From Desulfobacter sp. (GTDB lineage Bacteria; Desulfobacterota; Desulfobacteria; Desulfobacterales; Desulfobacteraceae), in assembly GCA_028768545.1 (NCBI GenBank), contig CP054838.1:449501-513500 (forward strand): a stretch of 64,000 nt of DNA, written 5' to 3'. The position numbers and the translations under genes are program-made. The notes under the pieces are model-generated. The model had not been told where the DNA came from, did not search any database, and worked only from the letters and a program-made list of their open reading frames with translations. Positions within the stretch are counted from its first letter, which is position 1. Each line of letters starts with the position of its first letter. Of this stretch, positions 48,627-63,894 are shown piece by piece.

Positions 48627-49463
48627 GGTTCTGTTGCAAAAAATATTTCCAGGACAAAGAGATCGTTCAGGCGTAAAATTTACGCAGCATAAGAAAACAG
48701 ATTTTCGACGAATTCTTTCTGCTTTAAAATTTCTCCCTTCCTAATATTTTTAACTTGTCCTTTTCTGATCATGTTCATAATTTCATAGCCTTTTAGCGTC
48801 CGCCAGGCAGAATGAAATGTCTTGAACCCCATACCAGCTCTGACAAGCTTTTTGATAAACCGGTGGTCTTGCTCAATAATATTGTTCAGATATTTATTCT
48901 GTCTTAGGATACAGTCCTTATTCAGAAGCTTTTTTTCTTTCAAAGCCTTTACTGCCGGAGGATATGCAGGATTTCCGTCAACACTCAGAACCCGAGGTCT
49001 GGAGCTATTGGAAGCTCGCAGCATCTTTTTAAAAAATCGTTTGGCAGATTCCATATTACGTCTGCTGCGAAGAAGAAAATCGATGGTATTTCCACGGGAA
49101 TCGACCGCTCGGTAAAGATACTTCATTTTCCCCCGCACCTTGATATATGTTTCATCAATACGGTAAGAATCATTTGATTGCCGCAGATACTTCCTGCTTC
49201 GCTTTTCCATTTCAGGAGCATAGCGCTGAACCCATCGGTAAATGGTACTGTGATCCACAGACAAGCCCCGTTCTTGCATCATCTCTTCCAGATTCCTGTA
49301 ACTCAGTTGATATCTCAGATACCAGCGAACATTCAACAGGATGATTTCTTTTTCATAATGACGCCACTTGAAAGGGTTTTCATTTTTCATACTATCTCTC
49401 TGCAAACAAATTAGTGCCAAAACGGACTTGTATCAGACATTAATAATTTTTTGCAACAGAACC
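48627..49463 (-). mobile_element. IS6-family insertion sequence, copy 1
   Basis: 837 bp with ends GGTTCTGTTGCAAAAAAT in inverted order. The 8-bp flanks (GACTTGTG and TACTTTTT) differ, so no target duplication is present, which is common for IS6 after cointegrate or deletion events. An identical-length copy lies inverted at 56933-57769. Confidence 0.92.
48680..49390 (-). CDS. IS6-family transposase, copy 1
   Basis: DDE transposase of 236 residues. The HTH at about 25-55 (RNLEEMMQERGLSVDHSTIYRWVQ) is followed by catalytic Asp in YRIDETYIKVRGK, Asp in VLSVDGNPAYPP and the final Glu near NIIEQDHRFIKK. ATG 49390 was chosen, with AGAGAG upstream; the upstream TTG at 49420 is unlikely. The protein is identical to that of copy 2. 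Confidence 0.95.
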   Translation of the reverse strand: MKNENPFKWRHYEKEIILLNVRWYLRYQLSYRNLEEMMQERGLSVDHSTIYRWVQRYAPEMEKRSRKYLRQSNDSYRIDETYIKVRGKMKYLYRAVDSRGNTIDFLLRSRRNMESAKRFFKKMLRASNSSRPRVLSVDGNPAYPPAVKALKEKKLLNKDCILRQNKYLNNIIEQDHRFIKKLVRAGMGFKTFHSAWRTLKGYEIMNMIRKGQVKNIRKGEILKQKEFVENLFSYAA

Positions 49464-49511: not shown

Positions 49512-49624
49512 ATTCGTCTTTTATATGATAGAGGCCGAATCTATTAAAATCACATTGAGTTAACCATAAAAACCAAATACGACCCTTCTAAACGGATGAG
49601 TATTTAATTTAAGGAGTAATGCTT

Positions 49625-50179
49625 ATGAACAACGATCCTTCTCAATTCACCCTGTACAGCGGCGGCCACAGAGGTGCTGAAGCGGAATTCGGCAGACTGG
49701 CTGAAAAATACGGCGTCAAAGAGGTTAATTTTTCCTTTGACGGACATAAACTTGCACGGGATGCAGGCGTCCGGGTACTGACCCAAGAAGATTTGGAAAA
49801 GGGAAATATCTCCATGGATATCGTATCCACCCGCCTGGGGAGATCCTTTTCCAAGGGCAATAAAATCAGAAAAGTCATCCAGTCCATTTTCCACATGATC
49901 AACAGCGGGTATCAGATTTTTGTGGTCGGCTGGATCCTTCCGGACAAAACCGTTAAAGGCGGAACCGGCTGGGGGGTTGAACTGGGCAAGCTGTTCAACC
50001 GGCCAATCTTTGTCTATGAGCAGGATAGAAAAGCCTGGTTTTCCTGGGTTGACAATGACTGGCAGATGGTGACCCCGGTCATCCATCACAAAACCTTTTC
50101 AGGCACCGGCACCCGGAACCTTACCGAAGATGCCGTCATGGCCATGGAAAAATTGTTTGAACTCTCTTTTAAATCATAA
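49625..50179 (+). CDS. SLOG-superfamily (YpsA-like) putative nucleotide-binding protein
   Basis: A 184-residue cytoplasmic protein, probably of the SLOG/LOG Rossmann-like group that binds nucleotides or nucleotide sugars. Supporting features are the N-terminal TLYSGGHRGAEAEFGRLAEKYG, a central basic region (STRLGRSFSKGNKIRKVIQ), IFVVGWILPDKT and the glycine motif GGTGWGVELGKLFNRPIFVYEQ. AAGGAG is 8 bp before ATG 49625. It lies next to pncA and near pncB, so a link to NAD-derived nucleotides is tempting but unproven. Confidence 0.62.
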   Translation: MNNDPSQFTLYSGGHRGAEAEFGRLAEKYGVKEVNFSFDGHKLARDAGVRVLTQEDLEKGNISMDIVSTRLGRSFSKGNKIRKVIQSIFHMINSGYQIFVVGWILPDKTVKGGTGWGVELGKLFNRPIFVYEQDRKAWFSWVDNDWQMVTPVIHHKTFSGTGTRNLTEDAVMAMEKLFELSFKS

Positions 50180-50202
50180 CGGCCTGGTTTCGCTGCAAAA
50201 TC

Positions 50203-50823
50203 CTAAACAATGGTGACCCCCGCCGCTGCCATATTTTCCAAGGCAGCACGGGTGGTCTCAGGGTCGACGCCCCGGCACAGATCCTTGATCAACACCACCC
50301 CAAACCCCAAGGTTAATGCATCCATGGCCGTGGCCCTGGCACAATAATCCGTGGTCAGCCCGTAAATGATTAAATTTTGAATCCCCTGATTTTTAAGGGC
50401 ATCAACCAGACCCGTACTTTTTTGACCGTCATCAAAAAAACCGGAATAGGAATCATAGGCTGGATCCATCCCCTTTTTGACGATCCGATCAAAGAGAGTG
50501 GTATCCACCAGCAGGTCTGCATTTTTTGTTTCCTGGACGCAATGGGGGGGCCAGAGAACCTGGACCCGGTCTTCAATCTTTATAGTCTCAAAAGGCGCTG
50601 TGCCTTTATGGTTGGAAAAAAATGAAATATGATCTTGGGGATGCCAGTCCTGGGTGGCAAATATTTTATACCCAGATTCCTTCAAGCCAAGGGTCTTTGC
50701 CCGGACCTGGTCGATATATGCCCGGTCTGTCCCCGCAACTGCCAGGCTACCCTGTTCGAGGTCTGTAAAGTCCCCCTGAACATCCACCACAATCACGGCT
50801 GTATTTTCTTGTTTTCTTATCAT
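50203..50823 (-). CDS. pncA: Nicotinamidase
   Basis: Converts nicotinamide to nicotinate for NAD salvage. Catalytic residues are Asp14 (VVDVQGDF), Lys116 or 117 (DRIVKKGMD) and Cys161 (TTDYCARAT). The metal site Asp59, His61 and His65 is in QDWHPQDHISF. Length 206. It is followed beyond the ISKra4-type element by pncB, the next enzyme of the pathway, on the opposite strand. Confidence 0.95.
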   Translation of the reverse strand: MIRKQENTAVIVVDVQGDFTDLEQGSLAVAGTDRAYIDQVRAKTLGLKESGYKIFATQDWHPQDHISFFSNHKGTAPFETIKIEDRVQVLWPPHCVQETKNADLLVDTTLFDRIVKKGMDPAYDSYSGFFDDGQKSTGLVDALKNQGIQNLIIYGLTTDYCARATAMDALTLGFGVVLIKDLCRGVDPETTRAALENMAAAGVTIV

Positions 50824-50931
50824 TTCATCCTCGTATCTCGTTTTTCACAAATTAAAACGGTTTTCTCAAGATTCAACCCCGGCCCGGATATTTCTTTCAA
50901 TTTCCTATAATCGGCCCCCCATATTGACCCG

Positions 50932-52454
50932 GGGCGCATTCCCATTTTCCCGGTTTTAAAAAGGCCTGTCTTTTAGAGCAAAAAGAATGATATCCTCTGT
51001 TACGCTGAAATGAACATAAATGGATTGTGCTAATGAAGAAAGCTGAAGATTGTAATACTGTTGATGAAGTCCTTGCATGCCTCAAAGAACTGGAAGAAGA
51101 TCCAAATCGCTTGGTTCGTAACGCTAACGAATTAGAACAGATGGAGCAGGAAATCCTTGAGTATACAAATCGGATAAGCGCCTTTTTTTTAAAAAAAAGA
51201 TCCAGGCCTCAGTAGATTCCTCTGAACAGGTCGACCAAGAAAAAGAATTGATGTCCAATTGGCCGGGACGGATGAAAAGCGAAGGGCTTGAGACCGTTTG
51301 GATTCAGCTTTGTACAGATAGTTCGGTTGATATTCATGTTCGATACTATCGAAGGTCCTGTGACCGCCGAAAAGGAAAAAGATATAAAGGTGCATACGCT
51401 GGCTTAATCCTTCTTGGAATCCATGATCGCTGCTCGCCTGCTTTGGCTTCTATGGTGAGTTCTTGGTCAGCCTTATTAAGTTCTTTTGAAGAAGTCCGTC
51501 AAGTGCTTTGTGACCGTGGGATGACGTTGGGTATAAAGGTCATCCGTAAACTGACCTATCGGTACGCATAGCGGGCTCGAGCCGAACAACAAGCGGGCCG
51601 AATCCCATTAAATGATAGAGATTTACTTGAAGGGCGGCGAGTCGTTATCAGCACTGATGGTGGCCGCACTCGGCTCAGAGAGAAGAAAAGGGGACCAAAA
51701 ACCCAAAAGGATAGAACCCGATTTCGTGGGGCATGGCGAGAACCCAAGCTTTTGATCATTTATGTAGTGGACGCCCATGGAAAACAAGAAAAAAGCTTTT
51801 CACCATTTATTGATGGCTGTTTCAATGGACCGGATGGTGTATTCCACTTGTTAAAGGGTTATTTGAACTCCCTTCATATTCAGAACTCAGACAAAATACT
51901 GTTTGTTGCAGATGGGGCACATTGGATTTGGAATCGAATCCCCGGACTGCTAAAAGCATTGGGTTTGGCTCCTGAGCGTGTGTATGAACTTCTCGATTTC
52001 TACCATGCAGTTGAGCATCTGGGTACAGTAGCAGGCTTAAGGAAGACCTGGTCATCCAAGGAACGCAAACGCTGGGTATCGAAGCAGCGAGGTCTTCTGC
52101 TGAAGGGAAAGGCGATTGAGGTGGTACAGGCCGTCCAGAAGCTTTGTAGAGGCAGAAACAGTAAGGCTATCAAGACGGAACGGGATTATTTTGTGCGCAA
52201 TGAACTGAGGCTTAATTTCTCAACTGTAAAAGCGTTGAACTTACCTATTGGCAGCGGTGCTATTGAAAGTTCGATTCGGAGAGTCGTGAATTTACGTCTT
52301 AAAGGTCCATGCATCTTTTGGTATCGGGAGAATGCAGAAAAAATGATTATGCTGCGATCATTTTATAAAGCAGGGCGTTGGAACTGCCTGAAGCAGATGG
52401 CAAACATTCACAATCCAGTGCCAGCGGTATAACCGGGAAAATGGGAATGCGCCC
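50932..52454 (+). mobile_element. ISKra4-family-like insertion sequence with perfect ends
   Basis: Exact 24-bp inverted repeats at 50932-50955 and 52431-52454 (beginning GGGCGCATTCCCATTTTC), flanked by an exact 8-bp duplication TTGACCCG at 50924-50931 and 52455-52462. Length 1523 bp. The clean ends show simple insertion in the pncA-pncB intergenic region. The right end lies 94 bp before the pncB start, so the pncB promoter may be affected. Confidence 0.92.
51033..52432 (+). pseudogene. ISKra4-like transposase with a -1 shift site and an internal stop
   Basis: The protein is spread over three segments. The first (51033-51215) ends soon after an 8T-8A run, and the -1 frame there continues IQASVDSSEQVDQEKELMSNW; T TTA AAA in the run is a plausible slippery site. 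The second stretch reaches RKLTYRYA and a TAG at 51569-51571, after which the same frame continues RARAEQQAGRIPL and ISTDGGRTRLRE, then VVDAHGKQEKSF, FVADGAHWIWN and ELLDFYHAVEHL to the end at 52432. The DDE-type residues all appear. The TAG should prevent transposition unless it is read through. Confidence 0.8.
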
Positions 52455-52548
52455 TTGACCCGCCTGGATTGATACAAGGGATTTATCCGTATACAAATCT
52501 GATTTCACAAGATATATATTACCTATATCGAATGAAAAAGGCGAGCCC

Positions 52549-53712
52549 ATGATTCAAAGTATACTTGACAATGATTTATACAAATTTACCATGCAGCAGG
52601 CCGTTCTGGACCTTTATCCCGAGGCCCGGGTGGCATACGAACTGACAAACAGGGGAGGGACCCCCTTTCCCCCAAAAATGGCCCGTGAAGTTCAAAAAAA
52701 AATCAACACCATGGCCAGCCTTTCTTTGACCCTGGACGAAAAAGCCTGGCTTGAAGATACATGCCCCTATTTTACCCCGGCATTTCTAAGGTTTTTATCT
52801 GAGTATCGATATGATCCTGAAGAGGTCAGCCTGTACCAGGAAAAAAGCCGCCTTTTTGCAACGATCAAAGGTCCCTGGTACCGGACCATTCTCTGGGAAG
52901 TTCCCCTCATGGCCATGATCAGCCAGACGTACTTTGAGATGACCGCCCCCAAAATCATGTCCAGAGACGACATTTGCCAAAGAAACCGAAGAAAAGCAAA
53001 AAAGCTGGCCTCTCACCAGGTCTCTTTTGTTGATTTCGGCACACGTCGCAGGTTTTCCTTTGCCAACCATGAAGACTTGATCAAAGAGATCACACGCCTG
53101 CCCGGCCACACGCTTTTGGGCACCTCCAATGTCCACCTGGCACAAAAATTCAACATTGCCCCAATCGGAACCCTGGCCCATGAATGGATCATGTTCCACT
53201 CCGGTTTAGGCAATTATAAAACAGCCAATGAAAGCGCATTGGAGGCCTGGGTCAAGGTATACCAGGGCAACCTGAGCATTGCCCTCACCGACACCTATAC
53301 CACGGATGCCTTTTTAACCTGTTTTGAAAAACCCCGGGCAACGCTGTTTGACGGGGTCCGCCATGATTCAGGAGACCCCATTGAATTTGCCCGAAAAATC
53401 ATCACCCACTACCAGGGCCTCGGCATTGACCCAAAGACAAAAACCATTGTGTTTTCAGACAGCCTGGATCCGGACAGGGCAATAGATATCCATCGATTCT
53501 GCAGGGGAAAATTCAAGGATATCTATGGTATTGGCACCAATCTAACCAATGATGTGGGAACAACGCCTTTGAATATTGTGATCAAGCTTTGCCAATGCAA
53601 CGCCGGACCCGGCATGCCATTACGGCCCACGGTAAAGCTCTCCGATGATAAGGGCAAGCATACAGGGGATAAAACAGAACTGTTGCAATGTATGAAAACC
53701 CTGGGGATTTAG
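52549..53712 (+). CDS. pncB: Nicotinate phosphoribosyltransferase
   Basis: NAD salvage enzyme joining nicotinate to PRPP. Of 387 residues, family motifs include SILDNDLYKFTMQQAVLDLYP at the start, SFVDFGTRRRFSF, LLGTSNVHLAQKF, the conserved His in GTLAHEWIMFHS, LTDTYTTDAFL, GVRHDSGDP and VFSDSLD. It converges with and overlaps the FlhG-like gene by 4 bp. Confidence 0.96.
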   Translation: MIQSILDNDLYKFTMQQAVLDLYPEARVAYELTNRGGTPFPPKMAREVQKKINTMASLSLTLDEKAWLEDTCPYFTPAFLRFLSEYRYDPEEVSLYQEKSRLFATIKGPWYRTILWEVPLMAMISQTYFEMTAPKIMSRDDICQRNRRKAKKLASHQVSFVDFGTRRRFSFANHEDLIKEITRLPGHTLLGTSNVHLAQKFNIAPIGTLAHEWIMFHSGLGNYKTANESALEAWVKVYQGNLSIALTDTYTTDAFLTCFEKPRATLFDGVRHDSGDPIEFARKIITHYQGLGIDPKTKTIVFSDSLDPDRAIDIHRFCRGKFKDIYGIGTNLTNDVGTTPLNIVIKLCQCNAGPGMPLRPTVKLSDDKGKHTGDKTELLQCMKTLGI

Positions 53713-54782
53713 CCCCGGTTCAGCCAGTCTTCAAAATCCAGGGTCAGGGGCTCTGAGGGCCAGGGGACCTTGGGCACCTCTATTTTGGGTTCAGGCGGAG
53801 TCTCGTGAATCGGCCGGGCCTCACGGGCCAGAACTTTAATCTGAGCCATCTCTTCTAAAAGACGGTCCATCTTATTTTCAATCCCGGACAACCTCTTTTC
53901 AAGGGCTTCACGATCCTGGACAGCTTGATTTTCAAGGACAAGATTCGTTGCCGGCACAGGCTGGTCCGGAACCTGTGGTGCGGGCCGTCCCTGGGAGAGC
54001 ATATCAAGGCATTGATCCCAAAAGGCCTCCACAGGCATATCCTCACCCGGATCTTTGACCAGTTTCAGGGCAATGGCACGGATACAGCGGGCCGCCATGG
54101 TATCCGGAAAAAGCATGAAAAACGGAATCTGGGAAACAACGGCAATGGGAACATTGGGATCCCGGGCCACAATCCCTAAAGGAGTGATCTTCAGGGATAA
54201 AAATTTATGGACCGTCTTTTTGAGTTTGGCATAGGCTTTTTTTGCCGCGGCTGCAGACTGAACCTGATTGATGACCACCCTTATCCTGGGAAGCCGGCCG
54301 CCCCGGGCCAATACCTTTAACAGGGAATAGGCGTCTGTCAGAGAGGTGGGTTCCGGCGTGGCCACCAGGATCATCTCATGACAGGCCCTGCAAAAGGAGA
54401 GCACCTGGGAGGAAATTCCGGCAGAGGTATCCAGGATAAAATAATCATAGGCAGATAATTCCAGGAATGCATTGATCAATCGCCCGGATTCGTCAGGGGT
54501 CAGGTCTGCCAGCTTGTCCACGCCTGAACTGCCCGGAATCATGTCAATTCCGTTGAAATCCTTGATCATGAAATCCTTGAGAGTTTTACGCCCCTCAATC
54601 ACATCGGCAAGTCCATGGTCAGGATATAGCCCGGTCAGGATATTCACATTGGCAAGGCCGAGGTCGCCGTCAAAGAGACAGACCCGATACCCTGCCTTTG
54701 CCAGGGCCAACGATAGATTGAGGCTGATGCTGGTTTTACCCACCCCGCCTTTTCCCGATGCAATGGTCAGCACCTTGGCCAT
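53709..54782 (-). CDS. MinD/ParA-superfamily ATPase, FlhG-like, with a C-terminal extension
   Basis: Deviant Walker A KGGVGKT (11-17), then LFDGDLGLANVNILTGL, DYFILDTSAGIS, VATPEPTSLTDAYSLLK and VINQV are characteristic of FlhG/YlxH proteins, which set flagellar number. The extra part (about 265-357) contains a short coiled coil (ALEKRLSGIENKMDRLLEEMAQIKVLAREA) and a Pro-rich tail. No flagellar gene is near. It is followed upstream on the same strand by a GspE N-domain-like gene, which may point to a pilus, secretion or polarity role. Confidence 0.8.
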   Translation of the reverse strand: MAKVLTIASGKGGVGKTSISLNLSLALAKAGYRVCLFDGDLGLANVNILTGLYPDHGLADVIEGRKTLKDFMIKDFNGIDMIPGSSGVDKLADLTPDESGRLINAFLELSAYDYFILDTSAGISSQVLSFCRACHEMILVATPEPTSLTDAYSLLKVLARGGRLPRIRVVINQVQSAAAAKKAYAKLKKTVHKFLSLKITPLGIVARDPNVPIAVVSQIPFFMLFPDTMAARCIRAIALKLVKDPGEDMPVEAFWDQCLDMLSQGRPAPQVPDQPVPATNLVLENQAVQDREALEKRLSGIENKMDRLLEEMAQIKVLAREARPIHETPPEPKIEVPKVPWPSEPLTLDFEDWLNRG

Positions 54783-54813
54783 ATTTACCTGCCTTCCTTT
54801 TTGGGCCGGGCCG

Positions 54814-55560
54814 TCACCAGAACCCCGGCCCCCTTTTTTTCAATAAAAACTCAACCGCAGAACACCCGAATCTTCGGGTAATTTTCCCATGGTTGATACG
54901 GATAAATTCAAAAAACGCCTGACCCCGGTCGATTTCTTTTACGGCAAGGGCCGTCTGGTTTTTTTCATACTCTTGGTAGAGGGTGTCAATGAGATTTTTG
55001 TCCTGTTCCGGTGACCGAACCTCAATGAAAATATCCATTCCCCTGTCCGGAGACGGACATGGGGTGCAGGAGAGAGGCAAGGACCAATTCTCATTGTAGA
55101 GCAGTTTATAAAACCAGGTAAACCCTGAAAACAAAATAAAAATCGGGGTAAACCGGTATTGGGGAAAGGTCTGATCCAGTTTCTTTATACAGATAAGATT
55201 TTCAGGGTCGGTGATCCCGACCATCACAGTATTGCCGGAAATCTGAAGGGGAATCATTTTATGCTCTGCTGCAAAGGCTTTTTGAATCACTCGGGATAAT
55301 TTTTCCTTGCTGGTTTTATCAAAAACAATATCAGAAACCGACCGGAAAGGAATGTGAAACAGGTCAAAAAGAATTTGCTGAAGCCTGGGTTTGGGAACAA
55401 CCTCCTCGTCCACAAGATAAGAGATCAACGGAATTGAACTGGTTTCAACCTTTGCTTCAATCTCCTTGATTCTGGACAAAGAGACCTGCTGGGTCTGAAC
55501 AAGATAGGTTTTGATTGACACCAGTTTTTGATGCTTGTCCAGAATATAATAATGGTTCAT
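54814..55560 (-). CDS. GspE/MshE N-terminal-domain-like protein
   Basis: A 248-residue protein whose first 150 residues look like the N-terminal domain of type II secretion or type IV pilus ATPases: LISYLVDEEVVPKPRLQQILFDLFHIPF, then VIQKAFAAEHKMIPLQISGNTVMVGITDPEN. No ATPase domain follows; instead there is a C-terminal part (about 165-248) that I do not recognise. Such MshEN domains can bind cyclic di-GMP, and a diguanylate cyclase is encoded 7 kb away, but the key residues were not aligned. It precedes the FlhG-like gene by 31 bp. Confidence 0.65.
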   Translation of the reverse strand: MNHYYILDKHQKLVSIKTYLVQTQQVSLSRIKEIEAKVETSSIPLISYLVDEEVVPKPRLQQILFDLFHIPFRSVSDIVFDKTSKEKLSRVIQKAFAAEHKMIPLQISGNTVMVGITDPENLICIKKLDQTFPQYRFTPIFILFSGFTWFYKLLYNENWSLPLSCTPCPSPDRGMDIFIEVRSPEQDKNLIDTLYQEYEKNQTALAVKEIDRGQAFFEFIRINHGKITRRFGCSAVEFLLKKRGPGFW

Positions 55561-55701: not shown

Positions 55702-56916
55702 ATGTCCACAAGCTTCATATACCATGCCTTTGGCCTTCGTGACTACTTTTATAAAACAACACGTTTCATCGGTGGAATAATCACTTTTGAACTCATACCA
55801 AAACCGGAGGCGGTAAAATGCCCGGAATGTAATTCCAGGTCCGTCACCAGGAAAGGGATTGTGACAAGAGATCTCAGAACAATACCGGTAGGTTCAAAAC
55901 CCGTGATTCTCAGGACGGCTATCCAGAGAATTTGGTGTTCGTTCTGTCAATTTGTCCGGCAAATCAAACTATCCTTTGCCCAGGAGGGGAAAAGCTATAC
56001 CCGGGCTTTTGAACGGTATGTCTTGGAGTTGTCTCAGTTCATGACAATCAAAGATATTGCCATCCATTTAAGGATCAGCTGGGATACGATAAAGCAGATC
56101 CAGAAAGAAGACCTGCTGAGGCGTTATCGAAAAATCCCCCTTGAGAAAGTCCGGCAGATTGCCATAGATGAAATTTCCATAGGGAAAGGGCATAAATACT
56201 TGACCATCGTGATGGATCTGGAATCCGGTAGAATTCTGCACGTGGGAGAAGGAAAAGGTGGTGAAGCTTTGAAATCTTTTTGGACAAAAGTGAAAATATC
56301 GAAAGCAAAAATCAAAGCCGTCAGCATCGATATGTCCCCGGCATACTTGAGTGCTGTTATTGAAAATCTTTCTGGTTCAGCAATTGTCTTTGACAGATTT
56401 CATGTTGTTAAATTGTTCAATGAGAAACTGTCGGATTTCAGGCGAAAGCTCTACAACCTTCTTGCCAATACCGGGCAACAAAAACTTCTGAAGGGAGTCC
56501 GGTGGCTTTTGTTAAAAAATCCCGAAAACCTCAGTGATGACAAGAAGGAGGCCCAACGGTTAGAAGAAGCATTGAAAATAAATCAGCCGCTATTGGTAGT
56601 CTACTACATGAAAGAGGAACTCAGGCAAATATGGAATCAAAAGAAAAAAGAAACAGCTGAAAAGATAGTCAGCAATTGGATCAATCTGGCCAATATTTCC
56701 AAAATTTCAATGTTGATGAAATTTGCCAAGACCTTGGCTGTGCACAGGCAAAGAATCCTTTCATACTATGATTACAGGATATCTACAGGTCCTTTAGAAG
56801 GGACAAATAACAAGATAAAAACCATGAAACGGAAAGCTTATGGATACAGGGATTCGGAGTTTTTCAGGTTGAAACTTTTGGACCTTCACAATAAAAGGTA
56901 CGCATTAATCGGATGA
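55702..56916 (+). CDS. ISL3-family transposase
   Basis: Transposase of 404 residues with the ISL3 layout: an N-terminal zinc-finger-like region (KCPECNSRSVTRKG, WCSFCQFVRQ), helix-turn-helix part, then QIAIDEISIGKGHKY with the first Asp, VSIDMSPAYLSAV with the second Asp and FDRFHVVKLFN, and the last Glu in STGPLEGTNNKIKTMKRKAYGYRD. It appears complete. The IS right end lies against the IS6-type copy at 56933 and may be missing; I could not identify its inverted repeats. Confidence 0.92.
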   Translation: MSTSFIYHAFGLRDYFYKTTRFIGGIITFELIPKPEAVKCPECNSRSVTRKGIVTRDLRTIPVGSKPVILRTAIQRIWCSFCQFVRQIKLSFAQEGKSYTRAFERYVLELSQFMTIKDIAIHLRISWDTIKQIQKEDLLRRYRKIPLEKVRQIAIDEISIGKGHKYLTIVMDLESGRILHVGEGKGGEALKSFWTKVKISKAKIKAVSIDMSPAYLSAVIENLSGSAIVFDRFHVVKLFNEKLSDFRRKLYNLLANTGQQKLLKGVRWLLLKNPENLSDDKKEAQRLEEALKINQPLLVVYYMKEELRQIWNQKKKETAEKIVSNWINLANISKISMLMKFAKTLAVHRQRILSYYDYRISTGPLEGTNNKIKTMKRKAYGYRDSEFFRLKLLDLHNKRYALIG

Positions 56917-56932
56917 ACCATAATAATTATCC

Positions 56933-57769
56933 GGTTCTGTTGCAAAAAATTATTAATGTCTGATACAAGTCCGTTTTGGCACTAATTTGTTTGCAGAGAG
57001 ATAGTATGAAAAATGAAAACCCTTTCAAGTGGCGTCATTATGAAAAAGAAATCATCCTGTTGAATGTTCGCTGGTATCTGAGATATCAACTGAGTTACAG
57101 GAATCTGGAAGAGATGATGCAAGAACGGGGCTTGTCTGTGGATCACAGTACCATTTACCGATGGGTTCAGCGCTATGCTCCTGAAATGGAAAAGCGAAGC
57201 AGGAAGTATCTGCGGCAATCAAATGATTCTTACCGTATTGATGAAACATATATCAAGGTGCGGGGGAAAATGAAGTATCTTTACCGAGCGGTCGATTCCC
57301 GTGGAAATACCATCGATTTTCTTCTTCGCAGCAGACGTAATATGGAATCTGCCAAACGATTTTTTAAAAAGATGCTGCGAGCTTCCAATAGCTCCAGACC
57401 TCGGGTTCTGAGTGTTGACGGAAATCCTGCATATCCTCCGGCAGTAAAGGCTTTGAAAGAAAAAAAGCTTCTGAATAAGGACTGTATCCTAAGACAGAAT
57501 AAATATCTGAACAATATTATTGAGCAAGACCACCGGTTTATCAAAAAGCTTGTCAGAGCTGGTATGGGGTTCAAGACATTTCATTCTGCCTGGCGGACGC
57601 TAAAAGGCTATGAAATTATGAACATGATCAGAAAAGGACAAGTTAAAAATATTAGGAAGGGAGAAATTTTAAAGCAGAAAGAATTCGTCGAAAATCTGTT
57701 TTCTTATGCTGCGTAAATTTTACGCCTGAACGATCTCTTTGTCCTGGAAATATTTTTTGCAACAGAACC
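56933..57769 (+). mobile_element. IS6-family insertion sequence, copy 2
   Basis: The same 837-bp element as copy 1 but inverted, with ends GGTTCTGTTGCAAAAAAT. Flanks AATTATCC and GAAAAAAC show no duplication. Together with copy 1 it borders a 7.5-kb segment containing pncA and pncB. Confidence 0.92.
57006..57716 (+). CDS. IS6-family transposase, copy 2
   Basis: A 236-residue transposase identical in translation to copy 1, with all three catalytic acids present (SYRIDETYIKV, LSVDGNPAY, IIEQDHRFI). ATG 57006 is used. Homologous recombination between the inverted copies would flip the intervening segment. Confidence 0.95.
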   Translation: MKNENPFKWRHYEKEIILLNVRWYLRYQLSYRNLEEMMQERGLSVDHSTIYRWVQRYAPEMEKRSRKYLRQSNDSYRIDETYIKVRGKMKYLYRAVDSRGNTIDFLLRSRRNMESAKRFFKKMLRASNSSRPRVLSVDGNPAYPPAVKALKEKKLLNKDCILRQNKYLNNIIEQDHRFIKKLVRAGMGFKTFHSAWRTLKGYEIMNMIRKGQVKNIRKGEILKQKEFVENLFSYAA

Positions 57770-60921: not shown

Positions 60922-61658
60922 ATGATACCCCCTTGCTTGACCGTTGTTTTCTGCGCCCTGGCCGCCGGGGTCCACGGTGCCGTTGGCATCGGGTTTCCCA
61001 TGGTGGCCACCCCCTTGCTGGCCATGGTCCTGGATGTCAAAACAGCGGTTCTGGTCTTGGTGCTGCCAACCGTGCTTATCAATACCATTAATATCCTCAA
61101 AGGCGGCAACTGGAAGAACAGTATTGCCCCATACTGGCCCCTGGCCCTTTACGGGATCGCCGGCAGTTTCCTGGGCACCCAACGCTTGTGACAGCACCAG
61201 CTGAATTTTTCCGTCCCCTGCTGGCCTGTATCCTCATTTTATATCTCAATGCCGAACGTTTGGGAGTGGGATTTTCCTGGATACCGGCCCATCCCAAAAT
61301 GGCCACGGCCTTTTTCGGGACAGCTGCCGGGCTTTTAGGCGGCACAGTCAATGTGATGCTCCCGGCCCTGGTTATCCTTGCCCTTGAAATCAAAATGGAT
61401 AAAACAGCCATGATCCAGGTCTTTAACCTATGTTTTCTTACGGGCAAACTGACCCAGGCGGCTGTCCTTTTAACCACGGGCCACTTCACCGCAAAAATCT
61501 TGCAAACCTCCCTTGTCCTGGCCCTGGTCTGCCCCCTGATCATGATTTTGGCCATGGGATTTCGGAACAGGATACGGGGAAAAACCCATCGCAAGTGGAT
61601 GCGACGCCTGCTGGCCCTTATGTCCGGGGTTTTATTGATTCAGACGCTCATGGGTTGA
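60922..61658 (+). pseudogene. TauE/SafE-family sulfite/sulfonate exporter-like permease, frameshifted
   Basis: The first part (MIPPCLTVVFCALAAGVHGAVGIGFPMVATPLLAMVL) is the typical TauE start and ends at 61191 with GSFLGTQRL. The second part starts at a GTG (61188) as VTAPAEFFRPLLACILILYL and ends at 61658. The two total 245 residues, the normal family length, and each lacks what the other has, so a single base change near 61188 is the likely cause. Split translation as two proteins through the TGA/GTG overlap is possible but less likely. Confidence 0.75.
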
Positions 61659-61685: not shown

Positions 61686-62033
61686 TCATCTTTTTTCTTC
61701 CAAAAGCCTGTCAAAAAAGGCTTTGGCTTCAGGAGCGAAAAGATGAAATGCTTGAAGTTTGTCACAGGGCTGTTCCCGGCAGGATGCGCAATTATCAAGT
61801 TTCTTGTCCATGCTGCATTGTCTTATTTTGCAGCTTCGGCAGTATGCAAACAGTCTTCCTGAATCACTTTTGCAGCCGTCGCAATTGACGTCTTCGGGCT
61901 TGACTGTCATGCCGAATTTTTTGGCATAAAAGGCGGCAGTCTGTTCCCTGGCCCGGTCATCATCATTCAATGTGGCCAGAAAACTTGGGCACTGGGTGCA
62001 GTTGAGTCCGCAAAAGGCGATCATTTCCGACAT
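61686..62033 (-). CDS. DUF3795-like cysteine-rich protein
   Basis: A 115-residue protein with about ten cysteines in a pattern typical of DUF3795: FCGLNCTQCPSF, VNCDGCKSDSGRLFAYCRSCKIRQC and LDNCASCREQPCDKL. It may bind zinc or an iron-sulfur centre; the function of the family is unknown. AAGGAGG is 5 bp before the ATG. Confidence 0.83.
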   Translation of the reverse strand: MSEMIAFCGLNCTQCPSFLATLNDDDRAREQTAAFYAKKFGMTVKPEDVNCDGCKSDSGRLFAYCRSCKIRQCSMDKKLDNCASCREQPCDKLQAFHLFAPEAKAFFDRLLEEKR

Positions 62034-62211
62034 AAAACACCTCCTTTGTTCGATTTATAATTCTTTTAACCCGGATCTCGAGCATCTCCTGAATTTTTTC
62101 AACAAACGCCTTTGGCGCCTTGTAATCCTGGTGTGAGCGCACCAGGACCACTTCACGGAACAATGCTTTCATCTCTTTTTGCGCCAGCGCTGTTTTCCCT
62201 CTTATCTTCAA
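62034..62211 (-). CDS. Possible short frame or gene remnant upstream of the DUF3795-like gene
   Basis: The minus-strand frame starting at 62211 reads MKIRGKTALAQKEMKALFRE, then VVLVRSHQDYKAPKAF and VEKIQEMLEIRVKRI before running on into the next gene in the wrong frame. There is no good ribosome-binding site. It may be the remnant of a longer gene or chance. Confidence 0.2.
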
Positions 62212-62811
62212 AGAGGCTCCAGACTCCGAAAATTATTCATCCATGGTTAAAGGCTGGCAGATTCTGAATATCACAGTTGCAAGAATTGGAAGATTTAAAC
62301 CACCCACCGTTCTGAATTAAAAAGGTTGGGATCCGCCCCCCCAAATGTTAAATCCCGCGCTCTATAAGAATAGACGTGACAAACACCTGGATGTGACAAT
62401 TTTCTTCACCTCTGTTCTGGGGCGGCAGAATCTCCCATTACCCTTTTTCTATTAAGGGCGGTTTTGAAGGACATGTCAAATGATTCTTTGGCAGAAACTT
62501 AATTTATTAAAAGACTTCTTTTTCCTTGCATCTCCGGAGGAGAAAAGTATATGTTCAATTATCTTTACAGCAGGGCGGCGGTTTTTTTCAAATAATATTA
62601 ACGCCATACAGCTGATTCATGGATTGTCCAATGGAAATGCAATACAGAGTATTGATAAAAACTTATCTTTTCAAATCTCAAAATGCCCAGAAGCAGCCGA
62701 CTGTAAATAAAGGGCGTATCCGGGGATATAAAAATGATAGGCCAATGCTCAACCCATGGCTTGTTCTGGATTTTAAACACCGCTCAAGGTGATGACGAGA
62801 GGAAAAAAAAG
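62212..62811. other. Gene-poor interval before the IS6 remnant
   Basis: About 600 bp with no convincing gene. A strong GGAGGAG followed by ATG 62551 opens only a 14-codon frame (MFNYLYSRAAVFFK), which could be the beginning of a lost gene. A 76-codon frame at 62480-62710 has no ribosome-binding site and an unconvincing composition. No tRNA, terminator or repeat family was recognised. Confidence 0.5.
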
Positions 62812-62907
62812 GGTTCTGTTGCAAAAAATTATTAATGTCTGATACAAGTCCGTTTTGGCACTAATTTGTTTGCAGAGAGATAGTATGAAAAATGAAAACC
62901 CTTTCAA
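62812..62907 (+). mobile_element. IS6-family remnant, first 96 bp
   Basis: Identical to the 5' end of IS6 copies 1 and 2 from the terminal GGTTCTGTTGCAAAAAAT through the start of the transposase gene (ATG AAA AAT GAA AAC CCT TTC AA), then abruptly different. Everything downstream of codon 8 has been deleted and replaced by the REC-GGDEF gene. Confidence 0.93.
62819..62847 (+). promoter_or_regulatory. Putative IS6-derived promoter driving the REC-GGDEF gene
   Basis: TTGCAA (62819-62824), in the terminal repeat, and ATACAA (62842-62847) with a 17-bp spacer are the most promoter-like sequence of the transposase leader. The -10 match is weak. No terminator separates it from the downstream gene. 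Confidence 0.35.
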
Positions 62908-62911
62908 ATGA
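62885..62911 (+). CDS. Eight-codon leader peptide left from the IS6 transposase
   Basis: The transposase start codon with its AGAGAG site is retained; the frame reads MKNENPFK and stops at TGA 62909-62911. The stop overlaps the start of the REC-GGDEF gene as ATGA, so ribosomes terminating here could restart on the downstream gene. Confidence 0.55.
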   Translation: MKNENPFK

Positions 62912-63894
62912 AAAAATCGTGTATCCTCATTGTTGATGACCGGCCTGAAAATCTTCTCACGCTTGAACAGGTGCTTGATTCTCCCGATCTGGATGTCATC
63001 CGGGCGGAATCCGGGCATGAAGCCTTAGAAAAGACATTGGACCATGAGTTTGCCCTTATCCTTTTAGATGTCCAGATGCCTGTGATGGACGGTTATGAAA
63101 CCGCCACCCTGTTGCGGGGCAACAAGCGGACCAAAAACATCCCCATTATCTTTGTTACGGCAGTCAACAAGGAAGAGGCCCATGTCTTCAGGGGATATGG
63201 GTCAGGGGCAGTGGATTACCTGTTCAAGCCCCTGGCAACCGATGTATTGACGTCCAAGGTAAAAATTTTTATAGAACTTCACAACCAGCGCCAGCTTCTC
63301 GAAGAAAAAACAAAGGAATTGGATGCCCGGGTGGCAGAGCTTCAAGCCCTGAAATACGAGTTGGAAGAGTCCAATGAAAAACTGCGGCAGCTCTCGTCTC
63401 TGGACGGGCTCACCGATCTGCCCAACCGACGGTTTTTCGATGAGACCCTGGTCAGGGAGTGGCAGCGGGGACGGCGGCGCAAAACCCCCTTAACCCTTAT
63501 CATTGCCGACATCGACCATTTCAAGGCCTATAACGATGCCTATGGTCATGTCATTGGGGATGATTGTCTTAAAAAAGTGGCCAAAGGCCTGGATAAAAGC
63601 ATATTAAGGGATGTGGACACCATTGCCCGGTACGGGGGGGAGGAATTTGCCGCCATCCTGCCGGAAACAGACCAGAAGGGCGGGGTTCTCATTGCCAAAC
63701 GGATGCTGACCACCATAGACAAAATGAACATCACCCATGAACATTCAGAGACAACCGACCATGTCACCATCAGCCTGGGGTTGGCCACGGTGATCCCGAA
63801 CAAAAAGACCAATGCCACCCACTTGATCCAGTCGGCAGACCAGGCATTGTACCTTGCAAAGGCCTCGGGCCGGAACGCCTTTAAGGTCAACTAA
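62908..63894 (+). CDS. Response regulator with GGDEF domain (diguanylate cyclase)
   Basis: Makes cyclic di-GMP on phosphorylation of its receiver domain. REC domain 1-120: acidic pocket in ILIVDDRPENLL, phospho-acceptor Asp about 53 in LILLDVQMPVMDGYE, and Lys in YLFKPL. A helical linker (about 125-165) precedes the GGDEF domain: LTDLPNRRFFDE, ADIDHFKAYNDAYGH, and active site RYGGEEF (about 242-248). The inhibitory I-site RDVD stands five residues before GGEEF, so product inhibition is expected. The ATG is directly joined to an IS6 remnant; a longer original N-terminus may have been lost, although the REC domain looks complete. Confidence 0.92.
   Translation: MKKSCILIVDDRPENLLTLEQVLDSPDLDVIRAESGHEALEKTLDHEFALILLDVQMPVMDGYETATLLRGNKRTKNIPIIFVTAVNKEEAHVFRGYGSGAVDYLFKPLATDVLTSKVKIFIELHNQRQLLEEKTKELDARVAELQALKYELEESNEKLRQLSSLDGLTDLPNRRFFDETLVREWQRGRRRKTPLTLIIADIDHFKAYNDAYGHVIGDDCLKKVAKGLDKSILRDVDTIARYGGEEFAAILPETDQKGGVLIAKRMLTTIDKMNITHEHSETTDHVTISLGLATVIPNKKTNATHLIQSADQALYLAKASGRNAFKVN

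Follow-up and report, generated by a model that had tools for sequence, protein, structure and literature searches.

In the chromosome of Desulfobacter sp., a gene for a REC-GGDEF diguanylate cyclase (dgc) stands directly behind the first 96 bp of an IS6-family insertion sequence (IS), and comparison with relatives (G011, G008, and G012) reveals that this element sequence has replaced the native sequence upstream of the gene (Table 1). We lean, with a probability that we place slightly above even, towards a reading in which a burst of the IS and the loss of the operon to which dgc belonged left the cut element joined in frame to the end of cheB, and in which dgc would be expressed through an IS promoter and a translational restart after a short leader. 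The window referred to below is the whole 64,000-nt stretch of DNA that was analysed.

Table 1. Features of the dgc locus and its surroundings (window coordinates)
Feature	Coordinates	Strand	Remarks
REC-GGDEF diguanylate cyclase gene (dgc)	62908..63894	+	Intact, 328 aa; Response_reg and GGDEF
IS6-family remnant (IS bases 1-96)	62812..62907	+	Letter-for-letter match to intact copy
Leader frame MKNENPFK*	62885..62911	+	Transposase codons 1-7 plus two bases of codon 8, joined to the probable last cheB codon and stop; G012 GCCAAATGAAAAAA versus own TTCAAATGAAAAAA
ATGA stop/start overlap, leader/dgc	62908..62911	+	Same overlap type native for cheB/dgc in G012 and G021
Candidate transposase promoter, TTGCAA, 18-nt spacer ending TGA, TACAAG (extended -10 type)	62819..62848	+	By eye, weak
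Intact IS6-family copy	56933..57769	+	Same element as remnant
Intact IS6-family copy	48627..49463	-	Same element as remnant; adjoins the block in the next row
Block that follows dgc in relatives	49611..55560		7-13 kb upstream of dgc here; bounded by IS copy; tblastx versus L052-L054; Pfam of G012 genes

The element is 837 bp long with inverted ends GGTTCTGTTGCAAAAAATTA and GGTTCTGTTGCAAAAAATAT, and the transposase of an intact copy scores 267 bits against the NCBIfam IS6 equivalog transpos_IS6 (cut-off, 125) and 158.6 bits against Pfam DDE_Tnp_IS240; it agrees with the features of the IS6 family (about 790 to 880 bp, terminal inverted repeats, 8-bp target repeats). The remnant before dgc is identical at 96 of 96 bases to bases 1 to 96 of an intact window copy, as well as to those of other copies in the genome (40 of 161 candidates scored), and when the comparison is extended (62812-62910 versus 56933-57031), the identity is 99%, with base 97 as the single mismatch. 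For an element found in dozens of copies, an identity of this length is no coincidence, and the claim of the first-pass annotation that the start of an IS6-type element is fused to a REC-GGDEF gene is thereby confirmed. An intact element has both ends and the transposase; the remnant, consisting of bases 1 to 96 only, is a fragment that contains the left terminal inverted repeat, the presumed transposase promoter region, a weak ribosome-binding site (RBS), and the first transposase codons. The transposase start codon lies at IS base 74, and the entire region preceding it has been kept.

A census of left ends throughout the genome (pattern with at most one mismatch, by which right-end-only or diverged remnants are under-counted) gave 70 such ends, and the stretches around them contain 72 IS pieces, 57 spanning the full length (bases 1 to 837) and 15 partial. 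The left end is kept in 13 of the partial pieces and the transposase start in 11 of these, among which only the remnant before dgc leads within a few codons into a non-transposase gene; where other truncated frames are followed near their ends by restarts exceeding 70 aa, these enter IS6, ISL3-type, or Mutator-type transposase genes. Among the candidates scored in 18 other genomes of the genus, there was no near-identical IS, and five of the 18 had partial matches with 64 to 88% identity.

Of the 57 full-span copies (loci L143-L205), only one is flanked by its own 8-bp pair. Between different copies, there are 12 left-to-right flank identities, compared with a mean of 0.12 and a maximum of 2 in 500 shuffled sets; eight of these 12 connect copies on opposite strands, as IS6 replicative inversion predicts, the remaining four link same-strand copies, and there is in addition one left-to-left identity. 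From these flank identities, a history of inversions and segment moves driven by IS6 can be read. Two same-strand copies (G000:C1:498127-498963 and 640791-641630) have the same 8-bp outer flank, CACAAGTC, and bracket a 142-kb segment that contains dgc and the window from 49464 on; this segment may have been inserted as a circle.

The product of dgc matches Pfam Response_reg (87.8 bits) and GGDEF (174.3 bits), and the GGEEF motif, the REC aspartates, and the RDVD motif, which we take to be of the inhibitory-site type, are all present; with an intact receiver domain and a GGDEF domain bearing the GG(D/E)EF active site, it is a REC-GGDEF protein. It scores 243.4 bits against the PleD equivalog NF007135, below the cut-off of 474. 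A search for orthologues in 40 genomes found three in congeners, G011 (89% amino acid identity), G008 (89%), and G012 (87%), each starting at the same ATG and encoding 328 aa, which rules out the loss of an upstream protein domain that had been suggested in the first-pass annotation. The dN/dS of dgc against these relatives (0.05 to 0.08) is no higher than among the relatives themselves (0.07 to 0.13), at a dS near saturation and with an event too recent for these ratios to bear on present selection.

In G011, G008, and G012, dgc is preceded by CheR and CheB_methylest genes (Pfam), and in G008 and G012, the operon is headed by a hybrid histidine kinase of 1361 to 1381 aa with HisKA, HATPase_c, three receiver domains, GAF, and HAMP, the G011 contig ending before the position of the kinase. 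In G011 (TAGATG) and G008 (TAAATG), dgc begins immediately after the cheB stop; in G012, stop and start share the letters ATGA. In G013 (67% identity), cheB ends about 11 to 12 nt before the dgc ATG; in G021 (59%), cheR is followed by a cheB-like sequence that is broken by a frameshift and overlaps dgc as ATGA; the still more distant match in G019 (46%) has a REC-HD gene at the upstream place instead. A wider search for related loci gave none above 63% identity among the best 80 of 589. The locus described here thus resembles the native hybrid kinase-cheR-cheB-REC-GGDEF operon of the same genus in the cyclase itself, its start codon, and the stop/start junction with the preceding gene, whereas the kinase, cheR, cheB, and the Shine-Dalgarno (SD)-like stretch within cheB are all absent. 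Relatives with the same start codon, one half of what the first-pass annotation named as refuting its reading, do exist, but their native upstream sequence is not present here. In its own genome, which is a single contig rated 97% complete, no orthologue of CheB or CheR (G011 queries) or of the kinase (G012 query) was found, the best-scoring matches having 38% identity, 28% identity, and 45% identity over a 264-residue stretch, respectively, and being paralogues at best; one of these searches scored 150 of 248 candidates.

On the other side of dgc, homology to the relatives stops at about its stop codon; a second junction at this point was considered and set aside for want of evidence, as the relatives diverge from each other there too. 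As it stands in the window, the block that follows dgc in relatives comprises a 183- to 186-aa gene without a family and isochorismatase-type, nicotinate phosphoribosyltransferase, MinD/ParA-type ATPase, and truncated MshEN-type genes. The gene at 54814-55560, beside the MinD/ParA-type ATPase, encodes 248 aa versus 325 to 327 aa in G012 and G008, and this shortened gene lies just before an ISL3-type transposase gene (55702-56916). Upstream of the remnant, the DUF3795 gene (61686-62033) has best matches of only 34 to 44% in G008, G011, and G012, and was of no help in placing the left flank. At 60922-61658, two frames of 89 and 156 aa may be the pieces of a split TauE/SafE-like exporter gene, perhaps a pseudogene; the first frame alone matches the Pfam model, below its cut-off. 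Elsewhere (L051:9608-10237), an IS6 left end, in reverse, continues in frame into the final portion of a receiver-containing sensor kinase (Response_reg above and HATPase_c below the cut-off); this kinase seems to have been cut by the IS.

The last base of the remnant, 62907, directly abuts the dgc ATG at 62908, and the eight-codon transposase frame ending in an ATGA overlap with the cyclase start, as read in the first-pass annotation, is indeed found. The leader stop overlaps the dgc ATG as described there, but its TGA is not IS sequence and sits on the dgc side of the junction; by comparison with G012, it is probably the former cheB stop. The letters at the junction are CCCTTTCAAGTGG in the IS, CCCTTTCAAATGAAAAAA in the remnant, and GCACCTGCCAAATGAAAAAA in G012, with CAA at the join common to the IS and G012, and the last cheB codon and stop in G012 (AAA TGA) are in the same frame as TTC AAA TGA here. 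These letters are most simply read as transposase codons linked, with the frame preserved, to the final codon and stop of cheB, so that the native overlap would have been kept and its upstream partner swapped. This reading assumes an ancestor with the G012 form and takes that form from one relative, as the cheB ends in G011 and G008 differ from it.

IS6 adjacent deletions leave the IS whole. Since the remnant is itself cut at base 96, a plain adjacent deletion is insufficient and is ruled out as the last step, and the view that a deletion next to IS6 was the direct cause needs to be changed; an illegitimate deletion running out of the IS, perhaps at the CAA microhomology, would be likelier. 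Two further candidates were rejected: (i) a target duplication shared by the remnant and the copy at 48627-49463, suggested by 110 nt of similarity reaching 11 nt past the IS end, is contradicted by the different 8-bp flanks (AAAAAAAG and AAAAAGTA) and is an A-rich coincidence, and (ii) a match between AAAAAAAG, reverse-complemented, and the left flank of a partial copy at 551179 does not have the pattern expected of an inversion and is of low complexity.

The replacement also changed the translation signals. The anti-SD energy over the 24 nt before dgc is +0.4 kcal/mol here, compared with -8.7 (G011), -11.8 (G008), and -5.5 kcal/mol (G012), and the SD-like stretch located inside the cheB end in all three close relatives is gone. 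The native stretches end 14 nt before the dgc ATG, which is farther than usual, and are marginal against 500 shuffles (20-nt slices), 7, 8, and 21% of which were as low or lower; because they are this far off and barely beat shuffles, the native gene itself may have relied on coupling. The RBS of the transposase is weak (-3.6 kcal/mol, with 65% of shuffles as low or lower; the slice ended one base inside the ATG, which leaves the paired stretch unaffected). With an ATGA overlap and no independent RBS before dgc, the locus has the sequence signature of translational coupling, and since the SD-like stretch is absent, translation of dgc probably depends on reinitiation after the leader, the only obvious route. 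The idea of a ready-made expression leader holds insofar as the whole region before the transposase start, the start codon, and an overlapping restart now occupy the place of cheB; the RBS is weak and the promoter candidate poor.

In IS26, the promoter is located in the leftmost 82 bp, and genes close to the left end of IS257 are driven by a promoter of that element (PMC7986276); by analogy with IS26, we infer that the remnant should hold a promoter. The candidate picked out by eye (Table 1) was not recovered by a promoter scan of 62400-63000, in which the sole plus-strand match was TTGGCA-18-GATAGT at 62855-62884; transcription from the latter would start at about 62891, inside the leader, and give no leader translation.

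Taken together, the reading towards which we lean can be set out in several steps: (i) a recent burst of the IS6-family element would have broken up the chromosome; (ii) the hybrid kinase, cheR, and cheB before dgc would have been lost, and an IS copy cut at base 96 joined to the very end of cheB; (iii) in the in-frame junction so formed, transposase codons 1 to 7 would run into the last cheB codon and stop, with the native stop/start overlap kept; (iv) dgc would probably be transcribed from the promoter of the IS left end; and (v) translation would begin at the start codon of the transposase, run through the 8-residue leader, and resume at the dgc ATG that overlaps the leader stop. The cyclase would thereby have lost the sensor encoded with it and come under the expression signals of a transposon. 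In this account, we infer the in-frame cheB fusion (from G012), the promoter activity, the coupling, and any effect on cyclic di-GMP.

The weakness of RBS and promoter is what one would expect if dgc were a silent relic of a chance rearrangement, hardly expressed if at all and owing its intactness solely to the recency of the event, which we regard as possible, though clearly the less probable account. The identity of the remnant to intact copies implies little time for decay, the orthologues of the kinase, cheR, and cheB were not found, and with 56 places in the own genome matching the REC-GGDEF protein (E <= 0.001), one loss may be tolerated. Against it, the junction lies exactly at the gene start and in frame with the overlap, which would be rare for a random break in a 5.5-kb operon, although this argument is made after the fact and from one case.

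Alternatively, the transposon start region could have been taken over as a substitute for the upstream gene, exchanged in frame for cheB, with the 8-residue leader setting cyclase output and the junction selected for freeing a cyclic di-GMP enzyme from its sensor. We hold this version to be doubtful; a single case cannot show selection for the placement of dgc.

A further explanation, which we consider unlikely and which partly overlaps with our preferred one, places the dgc promoter in the 780-bp stretch at 62034-62811, or invokes read-through from further upstream, the remnant then serving as leader only. The longest plus-strand frame in this stretch has 76 aa (62480-62710), and there is room for a promoter, but the scan of 62400-63000 shows no plus-strand promoter-like site upstream of the IS, and the nearest upstream gene with a family (DUF3795) points away. 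Finally, an assembly error, in which a 96-bp sequence repeated dozens of times led to two places being wrongly joined, is very improbable: the 70 near-identical left ends and the MarR/acyl-CoA dehydrogenase pair left of the remnant, which in G008 is 1.5 Mb away from the dgc operon, would fit it, but the genome is one contig and a repeat misjoin would not create the junction between IS base 96 and dgc, only the linkage to the left flank being open to such an error.

That IS6 promoters drive neighbouring genes and that diguanylate cyclases capture promoters are both already known. IS6 members often drive adjacent genes via outward or hybrid promoters (PMC7986276). The left end of an IS6 element carries the transposase promoter, and the left end kept here holds the presumed promoter region; the cases described for IS26 and IS257 use a flank or outward promoter (PMC7986276), whereas the present IS ends at base 96, and dgc is positioned and oriented as the transposase would be, the start of which serves as leader. 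In Pseudomonas fluorescens SBW25, deletions under selection joined a GGDEF gene to an upstream gene and gave it a new promoter, one of them removing four intervening genes, with transcript levels raised 23- and 219-fold in two fusions and 3.9-fold, not significantly, in a third (PMC4395868). Those cases arose under laboratory selection and involve in-frame protein fusions or captured host promoters (PMC4395868), whereas the present case concerns a natural genome, a transposon fragment, and an unfused cyclase. The locus would function in a similar manner to these known systems, a truncated IS taking the role of the upstream gene. In the literature searched, at the level of titles and the beginnings of abstracts, no IS6-headed cyclase is described.

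To conclude, the weight of the finding is moderate, as it concerns one gene among the many cyclases of the genome and its expression is predicted. The locus looks like a natural counterpart of laboratory promoter capture, in which a transposon fragment would supply the start signals and the native translational overlap would be reused, and it illustrates how the gene for an output can persist after the sensory operon around it has gone.
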